Shown: one piece after another, positions 19,950 through 23,592 of the stretch
Numbering within the stretch: the first letter of the stretch is position 1
Layout: each line of letters starts with the position of its first letter
Origin: Arenicellales bacterium
GTDB lineage: Bacteria > Pseudomonadota > Gammaproteobacteria > BMS3Bbin11
Direction: 5' to 3'
Length of the DNA: 33,378 nucleotides
Assembly: GCA_029287915.1 (NCBI GenBank)
Contig: JARFQE010000137.1
Span: 1-33,378 of the forward strand
Program-made: the position numbers and the translations under genes
The notes under the pieces: model-generated
What the model was told of the DNA's origin: nothing
The model's input: only the letters and a program-made list of their open reading frames with translations
The model's database searches: none

Positions 19950-20705
19950 ATGATTTTCAGGCAATTATTCGAAACGGATTCCAGCACATACACCTATTTA
20001 CTGGCCTGCCGTGATACAGGTGCCGCAGTTCTGATCGATCCTGTTATCGATAGCGTTGAGCGTGATATCGAGCTTATCCAGAAACTGCAGCTAACGCTCG
20101 CCTATACCATCGATACTCATCTGCATGCCGACCACCTGACCGGAGCGCGTGTATTGCGCAACAAGACCGGCTGCCAGGTGGCTTTTCCCGAGGTGGAAAT
20201 GCCGGAGTGTGCAGATATCGCAATGAAAGAGGGCGTGCCATTTCAGTTTGGCAGCATTAGGCTGGACCCATTATTTACCCCGGGACATACCTCGCATCAC
20301 TTCGCTTACCGGCTTGATGACGGCACACAAAGCAGGGTATTCACCGGCGACGCACTATTGATCGAAGGATGCGGCCGCACCGATTTCCAGTCCGGCGACG
20401 CTGCAACGCTTTACCATAGCATCCGCGAAAAGCTGTTTACTCTGCCCGATGAGACGCTGGTCTACCCGGGACATGACTATAATGGCCGGCAGGTTTCCAG
20501 TATTGGTCAGGAAAAGGCACGCAACCCACGCCTGGGGATGGATAAATCAGAAGCGGATTTTATCGCCATCATGCAGGATCTAGACCTGCCTTACCCACGC
20601 AAGATTGATTTCGCGGTGCCCGGTAACGAGCAATGCGGGAAATGCCCGGATAATGTTCCGGCCGAGTTCCAGGGGCCTTGCCACCGCTTTGACCAGGGTG
20701 AGTAG
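19950..20705 (+). CDS. Persulfide dioxygenase (ETHE1-like), MBL fold
   Basis: 251-residue non-haem iron enzyme that oxidises glutathione persulfide to sulfite and glutathione. The THLHADH motif (residues 56-62), PGHTSHH, TGDALLI and YPGHDYNG give the iron ligands and the ETHE1 signature; GCGRTDFQSGD is especially diagnostic. The C-terminal tail has a Cys pair (EQCGKCPDN) and a further Cys, slightly extended relative to ETHE1. GAGGAATGTC supports the start. A hairpin follows before the convergent metallo-hydrolase. The gene indicates sulfide or persulfide handling in this cell. Confidence 0.9.
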   Translation: MIFRQLFETDSSTYTYLLACRDTGAAVLIDPVIDSVERDIELIQKLQLTLAYTIDTHLHADHLTGARVLRNKTGCQVAFPEVEMPECADIAMKEGVPFQFGSIRLDPLFTPGHTSHHFAYRLDDGTQSRVFTGDALLIEGCGRTDFQSGDAATLYHSIREKLFTLPDETLVYPGHDYNGRQVSSIGQEKARNPRLGMDKSEADFIAIMQDLDLPYPRKIDFAVPGNEQCGKCPDNVPAEFQGPCHRFDQGE

Positions 20706-22455: not shown

Positions 22456-22779
22456 ATGACCTATGTCGTTACAGAAAATTGTATTCGCTGTAAATACACC
22501 GATTGTGTAGATGTCTGTCCTGTCGATGCTTTCCGTGAAGGTCCAAATTTCCTCGTCATTGATCCGGAAGATTGTATCGACTGTGACGTGTGTGTGCCAG
22601 AATGCCCGGCTGAAGCAATCTTCGCCGAGGACGATGTCCCACAAGAGCAGCAGGATTTCATCGCACTGAATGCCGAGCTGGCTGTGAAGTGGCCCTCTAT
22701 CACAGAAGGCAAGGACCCGTTGCCGGATGCCGCTGACTGGGATGGTGTGGAAGGCAAGTTGCAGTACCTCGAGAAATAG
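22456..22779 (+). CDS. fdxA: 7Fe ferredoxin (FdxA-type)
   Basis: 107 residues, a [3Fe-4S][4Fe-4S] ferredoxin of the Azotobacter FdI type. Cys9, Cys17 and Cys50 suit the 3Fe cluster; Cys21, Cys40, Cys43 and Cys46 the 4Fe cluster; Cys12 is the usual extra residue ([20 protein letters not shown], then [16 protein letters not shown]). The C-terminal extension ending in GKLQYLEK is typical of FdxA. AAGGAA upstream supports the start. It is a low-potential cytoplasmic electron carrier; the partner is not shown. Confidence 0.94.
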
Positions 22780-23011
22780 CACATCCAATTACGCTCTTTT
22801 CTTGTTTATCGCTGGATGATAAACCCTCCTGTCCATTTGATTTTATTCTGCCTCGCGAAATCAGGTCTTGCAATAATCAGTCAATAAAAACAATAAATTA
22901 TGTCAAATTTTACAATATAAACTAAATTTTCTCTTACATCAGTGGAACTAATCCTGACTAAAAAGGTCAGATATTTTGAATATACTGAAATACTGATATA
23001 GGAGGTTAGCT

Positions 23012-23464
23012 ATGACTGGACTGATACCTGGATTTCCCTATGACGGTGTGGTCACCATTAACCGCGTTATTCTGAAACCGCAATATTCTGTGGATGATCT
23101 GCAGGAACGCGTGGCCGAGCTGTGTGAAAACGTTAAAACCTATCATTCCGACACCGGTTTTGTCGGTGGTTTCGTGGCCCTCAACTCCGGTGAGATATCC
23201 AATGAGGGGTCGACGATAGGCCAGGCCGTGGCCAGCCCGCTGAAGGGCAAAGAGGCAATGATTGTGACTTTCTGGAACTCGTTCGAGGATCATGAACGGT
23301 CGCATCGTTCCGAGACCTTCCAGCCGTTGTTCAAGAATGTGCTGGAACTCTGTGAAAACGGTAACGAGGAAATTGCCTATGATATGCTCTGGTCCGGCAA
23401 GGCCTATTCAGCTGAAGAGGCTAAGAAAGCCAGGGAAATAAAGCAGCTCTATTCTGCTGCTTAA
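23012..23464 (+). CDS. Dimeric alpha/beta-barrel protein resembling the N-terminal half of sulfur oxygenase/reductase
   Basis: 150 residues, no signal peptide, strong GGAGGT ribosome-binding site (23001-23006). The pattern TFWNSFEDHERSHRSETF gives His94 and His98 in an FW-x5-H-x3-H spacing. From memory, this is the same spacing as the iron ligands His86/His90 of archaeal sulfur oxygenase/reductase (SOR). Glu120 in EEIAYDM falls close to the place of SOR Glu114. A GFVGG motif (49-53) also matches the SOR region GFVG, and Cys38 and Cys114 lie near, but not exactly at, the SOR Cys positions. Full SOR is about 310 residues, so this would be a minimal form. Antibiotic-biosynthesis-monooxygenase-like folds also show a W...H..H helix, so the enzyme activity is unproven. 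It follows fdxA by 232 bp in an AT-rich gap. Confidence 0.7.
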   Translation: MTGLIPGFPYDGVVTINRVILKPQYSVDDLQERVAELCENVKTYHSDTGFVGGFVALNSGEISNEGSTIGQAVASPLKGKEAMIVTFWNSFEDHERSHRSETFQPLFKNVLELCENGNEEIAYDMLWSGKAYSAEEAKKAREIKQLYSAA

Positions 23465-23558: not shown

Positions 23559-23592
23559 AAAAAGGGCCGGTGAATTCACACCGGCCCTTTTT
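23559..23592. terminator. Strong bidirectional terminator
   Basis: AAAAAGGGCCGGTG (23559-23572) pairs perfectly with CACCGGCCCTTTTT (23579-23592) around a 6-base loop, followed by another T. The A run before and T run after make it work on both strands. It ends the plus-strand SOR-like gene and the minus-strand small membrane protein gene. Confidence 0.92.

Follow-up and report, generated by a model that had tools for sequence, protein, structure and literature searches.

The window analysed here, a stretch of 33,378 nucleotides, contains a small gene whose product raises a simple question: is the protein a relative of sulfur oxygenase/reductase (SOR), or an ordinary protein of the ABM fold that happens to resemble one? 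The original prediction favoured a minimal, single-domain SOR relative and named a generic ABM-type fold as the alternative.

The gene and its signals

The gene (23012..23464, + strand) runs from ATG to TAA and encodes a 150-aa protein with a single ABM-fold domain. The open reading frame is exact, and the features picked out in it are all there: F87-W88-x5-H94-x3-H98, E120, the segment G49-F-V-G, and two Cys residues (C38 and C114), the only ones in the protein. On the + strand, the Cys38 codon lies at 23123..23125, the His94-x3-His98 codons at 23291..23305 and the Glu120 codon at 23369..23371. Inspection of the sequence places a Shine-Dalgarno-like AGGAGG (23000..23005, +) just 5' of the ATG and a 14-pair hairpin resembling an intrinsic terminator (23559..23592, +) 3' of the gene, signals that make it look like a transcription unit of its own. 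The gammaproteobacterial genome from which the window comes carries soxB and dsrA, and the nearest relative of the window is an Arenicellales bin (L016).

A discrete and strongly conserved family

A tblastn-confirmed scan yielded 364 relatives of the 150-aa protein. The best 80 of these show 76-86% identity, and nearly all their hosts are sulfur oxidisers, among them Sedimenticola, Thiobacillus, Thioalkalivibrio, Candidatus Thiodiazotropha, Halochromatium, Thiohalocapsa and Hydrogenophilales; the anticipated sulfur context is thus borne out by the organisms that carry the gene. Identity is about 70-86% across proteobacterial classes, and a second, paralogous group is 33-38% identical to the window protein. 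A family profile run against 398 genomes of the phylum found both groups, and no others, in 9 genomes, and detected nothing beyond the close and paralogue groups; the family is therefore discrete. Members also occur in two ~1-Mb genomes (96-99% complete), and plasmid sequences gave no match to the gene.

All members are single-domain proteins of ~150 aa that lack the second SOR domain. The residues C38, G49, F50, G53, W88, H94, E95, S97, H98 and F107 are invariant in 119/119 distinct sequences drawn from both groups, E120 is kept in all 118 that cover it, Y123 and W127 are likewise invariant where covered, and position 114 is Cys in 118 of the 119. Poor conservation of His94, His98 and Glu120, which would have spoken against a shared iron site, is clearly not what we find. 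Omega values of 0.007-0.24 between relatives show that amino-acid replacements accumulate much more slowly than silent changes.

The genome of the window also holds a paralogue (~37% identical; G000:C83:27412-27789, L096:1483-1893), which adjoins a cytochrome-b561-like gene. His45 of the main group is replaced by Tyr in the second group. Another paralogue copy (G005:C190:841-1257) contains two in-frame TAA codons, which may reflect gene decay or a fault in the assembly. Two genomes carry a duplicated 3' tail after an intact gene copy (L068:5670-5782 and, at locus L105, G308:C1:1972508-1972615); at L068 the duplication is local, extends to the DNA level and is flanked by repeats.

Sequence similarity to SOR

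SOR binds its iron through His86, His90 and Glu114; Cys31 is essential, and Cys101 and Cys104 are supportive (PMC7398979). The predicted likeness in spacing holds: the two His are 4 residues apart in both proteins, and the second His is separated from the Glu by 22 residues in the 150-aa protein and by 24 in SOR. C38 lies 11 residues before the GF, and SOR Cys31 8 residues before it. All 50 family members and all 11 SOR N-halves examined contain the motif W-x5-H-x3-H-x18-26-E-x2-[YF], against 0/26 ABM proteins of related genomes and 0/742 other, neighbouring ORFs; even its core, W-x5-H-x3-H, was found in none of the 11 SOR C-halves. The two Cys lie near SOR Cys positions, as claimed. C38 corresponds to Cys31 in 119/119 sequences, a pairing that depends on gap placement (paired in one hhalign alignment, shifted in two other profile alignments), but the Cys101-x2-Cys104 pair has no C-x2-C counterpart, only the single C114 nearby.

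SOR was the best known-family match for 42/50 members in Pfam and for 36/50 in NCBIfam (best 5.7e-5), and the family profile found Sulfurisphaera (S. tokodaii) SOR as its top PDB match (E 4.2e-5, residues 14-135). The relation is reciprocal: in 369 genomes a SOR model recovered 10 true SORs plus 31 matches below the cut-off, 20 of which belong to the small family. All SOR scores of the family stay under the curated thresholds; the window protein itself scored 15.4 bits against PF07682 and 18.5 bits against NF047630, below the curated cut-offs of 25 and 400 bits respectively, and its pairwise score to SOR was weak (E 0.16). Compared by hhalign, the family reached a probability of 93.9 with the SOR N-half, 2.1 with the SOR C-half; the value for an ABM protein set was 91.8. 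The ABM model PF03992 did not match the window protein and matched 17/50 members weakly (best member E 0.0062). Matches to triosephosphate isomerase, seen in the pairwise and PDB profile searches, were judged to be chance, as this enzyme has a different fold.

The protein thus carries a SOR-like set of residues and SOR is its nearest named family by sequence, but it is not a SOR: it has one domain, no C-x2-C, and scores below the cut-offs. At 150 aa it is half as long as SOR, in which two domains are fused (~308 aa), as had been noted.

Predicted structure

AlphaFold2, supplied with a 50-sequence alignment, predicted one ferredoxin-like ABM-type domain (pLDDT 90.5). Helix 27-45 contains C38 and helix 91-99 both H94 and H98; strand 81-88 finishes with W88 and strand 119-124 begins with E120. 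In the model of a bacterial SOR, used for secondary structure only because of its pLDDT of 58 overall (about 65-84 around the site), C33 falls in helix 19-37, W82 in strand 74-82, H88 and H92 in helix 85-94, and E116 in strand 110-124. Both models therefore share one register, with the Cys in helix 1, the Trp at the end of strand 3, the two His in helix 2 and the Glu in the last strand. Alignment and conservation make Cys38 the counterpart of the catalytic Cys31, alignment, predicted structure and conservation make His94 and His98 those of His86 and His90, and conservation and predicted structure lead us to propose Glu120 as that of Glu114. The positions of the SOR iron ligands and catalytic Cys are accordingly both invariant and placed on the same helices and strand.

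The best structural matches were ABM proteins, led by SnoaB (3kg0; Z 14.3, rmsd 1.5, 97 residues), with FasU (9lsd) also among the closest solved folds. The solved SOR matched with Z 11.1 and rmsd 3.4 over 126 residues, but the part aligned is its C-terminal half, where there is no iron site. Foldseek matches included IsdI/IsdG. The profile search and the structural comparison proposed as checks thus had different leaders, SOR in the former and, in the latter, ABM proteins, the alternative that the prediction itself had named.

Set beside the SOR N-half (PF07682/NF047630; A. ambivalens 2cb2, S. tokodaii 6m35), the family shows Cys, GF, W, H-x3-H and Glu in matching order and on matching secondary-structure elements; the ferredoxin-like domain and sulfur-oxidising hosts are further common features. 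SOR contains bound iron, assembles as a 24-mer hollow sphere and has oxygenase/reductase activity.

Two observations concern SOR itself. SORs are held to be cytoplasmic; one true SOR (L140:1210-2400, G530) has, at about residues 50-90 of its frame, an N-terminal RRKFLKMTAMAAGGATMMG stretch resembling a Tat export signal. A second type of bacterial SOR, divergent and sharing about 30% identity with the classical one, was found at L121, L122, L141 and L142, and at least three of its genomes also carry the small family.

Phylogeny

The family grouped with the SOR N-half in a clade (support 93/83) apart from ABM proteins and the SOR C-half. With the active-site columns masked, this clade was lost; forcing it was not rejected (p 0.30). 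The link in the tree therefore rests on the active-site residues, and we do not accept the tree as proof that the family shares an ancestor with SOR.

Neighbouring genes

In the window, a ferredoxin gene (22456..22779, +) lies upstream of the SOR-like gene; it was not found adjoining the gene elsewhere. Some 2.3 kb upstream, a further gene (19950..20705, +) encodes a metallo-beta-lactamase-fold protein (Pfam PF00753) that resembles ETHE1-type persulfide dioxygenase, a mono-iron enzyme that converts persulfide to sulfite. The latter would be functionally similar to the activity we consider below, although its fold is unrelated. A relative of this protein, ~30-32% identical, is present at the loci of 7/80 relatives, which is a weak link. 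At six Thioalkalivibrio loci (L046, L056, L059, L076, L078 and L091) an ETHE1-like gene precedes the family gene by no more than about 3 kb, and Thioalkalivibrio loci also have an adjoining, divergently oriented ArsR-type regulator gene, apparently fused to rhodanese.

No conserved operon partner, sulfur genes included, was found at the loci of relatives. Neighbours vary by lineage: mutL and others in Thiobacillus, the ArsR-type regulator gene in Thioalkalivibrio, and queA-tgt-yajC-secD in the small genomes. As the gene is solitary and its neighbours are lineage-specific, we propose no partner.

Carriage follows sulfur oxidation genes

Among 95 related genomes, 19 carry the close group; soxB exceeds the cut-off in every one of these, and dsrA is present in 18, twice as a fragment at a contig edge. 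Counting carriers of either group, dsrA was present in 22/23 versus 8/65 non-carriers (p about 4e-13) and soxB in 22/23 versus 9/65 (p about 1e-12); these counts were thinned to about one genome per family, and since related families are partly dependent the p values are not strict. Ordinary ABM genes, examined as a control, had no tie to sulfur (5/10 dsrA+ versus 12/27 dsrA- genomes). Carriage of the SOR-like gene follows that of sulfur oxidation genes.

A survey of 75 Thioalkalivibrio genomes assigned SOR to three strains and the rDsr pathway to a group of six (PMC6382920). The small family is present in many Thioalkalivibrio, so that many of these carriers probably lack rDsr, and the common denominator is more likely to be Sox plus either cytoplasmic route than rDsr alone. 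Some carriers (Halochromatium, Thiohalocapsa) are largely anaerobic phototrophs.

Proposed function and alternatives

The observations behind the original prediction are confirmed and its interpretation is partly supported. We propose that the protein is a cytoplasmic, homodimeric 'half-SOR', a non-heme-iron protein acting on sulfane sulfur through a SOR active site that was either kept or evolved, and put the probability of this reading at about 0.45. The protein would be a cytoplasmic one-domain member of the dimeric alpha+beta-barrel (ABM-type) superfamily, in which His94, His98 and Glu120 are predicted to hold a mononuclear non-heme iron and Cys38 would carry sulfane sulfur in persulfide form. 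As in other one-domain members, two copies of the protein probably pair into a barrel that has two identical sites, whereas SOR is one fused barrel with one site. The most likely substrate would be sulfane sulfur, as persulfide, polysulfide or in carrier-bound form, in the cytoplasm of Sox/rDsr and some sHdr oxidisers, where the putative enzyme might oxygenate surplus sulfur to sulfite or thiosulfate, or protect the pathway. The presence of the gene in largely anaerobic phototrophs tempers the oxygenase reading.

Much of the same evidence could be accommodated by an ABM-fold enzyme that binds metal through a 2-His-1-Glu site evolved separately from that of SOR on the shared scaffold, and whose substrate is something else common in sulfur oxidisers, such as an organic thiol, an intermediate bound to a thiol, a lipid or a quinone. 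We regard this as unlikely, though a serious competitor. The loss of the SOR link in the masked tree, the almost equal hhalign scores for ABM and SOR and the structural ranking are all consistent with it; yet the catalytic Cys and iron ligands match SOR in order and in secondary-structure element, the profile match is to the SOR N-half and not the C-half, and the tie to soxB and dsrA points to inorganic sulfur. Ordinary ABM proteins (PF03992), although they share the single ferredoxin-like domain and provide the closest solved folds, differ in that none of the 26 from related genomes has the His/His/Glu motif and in occurring independently of sulfur genes. The main functional rival, somewhat less probable again, dispenses with oxygenase activity altogether: a sulfane-sulfur carrier or sensor built on the ABM scaffold, using Cys38 (with Cys114) and feeding, for example, TusA/DsrE or rDsr/sHdr, with His and Glu structural or binding a structural metal. 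The (near) invariance of both Cys, the solitary gene with its own terminator, and occurrence in phototrophs and in sulfur oxidisers that denitrify, to which an enzyme dependent on O2 is less useful, would fit such a role. However, a carrier has no need of an invariant H-x3-H plus Glu, and no operon with tusA, dsrE or rhodanese was seen at the loci of relatives.

That the resemblance to SOR is a chance short-motif match on an ordinary ABM protein seems improbable. Although the weak pairwise score, and the fact that triosephosphate isomerase scores too, would suit that explanation, it has to contend with residues invariant in 119 sequences, reciprocal best sub-threshold matches with the SOR model, and a pattern absent from ABM and control proteins. 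Very improbable indeed is a heme-binding or heme-degrading protein of the IsdG/HmoB type, with heme degradation unlikely. The shared ABM-type fold, the Foldseek matches noted above, a strand-1 Asn-Arg common to the family and IsdG-like host proteins, and weak matches of 5/50 members to heme-oxygenase models (best 0.005) hint in this direction; against it, the heme-ligand His of the Asn/Trp/His triad (e.g. in host protein L123, W+19) corresponds, by count from the conserved Trp, to the invariant Phe107, hhalign with IsdG-type ABMs gives a probability of 0.3, i.e. no profile match, and carriage tracks sulfur-oxidation genes.

Judged from its sequence and distribution, this small protein may be an overlooked sulfur enzyme. 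A full-text literature search, with subscription papers outside its range, turned up no description of a SOR relative with one domain. A bolder extension, which we hold to be doubtful, is that such proteins form a widespread, unrecognized family of 'half-SOR' homodimers acting as iron oxygenases or in sulfur disproportionation, that neutrophilic Sox/rDsr/sHdr oxidisers commonly carry them as an accessory, and that they retain the ancestral one-domain state, two-domain SOR being the product of a duplication, a fusion and the loss of one site. SOR has been considered rare and is best known from thermoacidophiles; its small relative is commoner, at least in Thioalkalivibrio. The cytoplasmic handling of sulfane sulfur in Sox/rDsr/sHdr bacteria is still only partly worked out, and the family offers a concrete candidate for it. 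As a conserved family with intact SOR-type residues, retained even in ~1-Mb genomes, it could show how the SOR fold originated from a one-domain ancestor.
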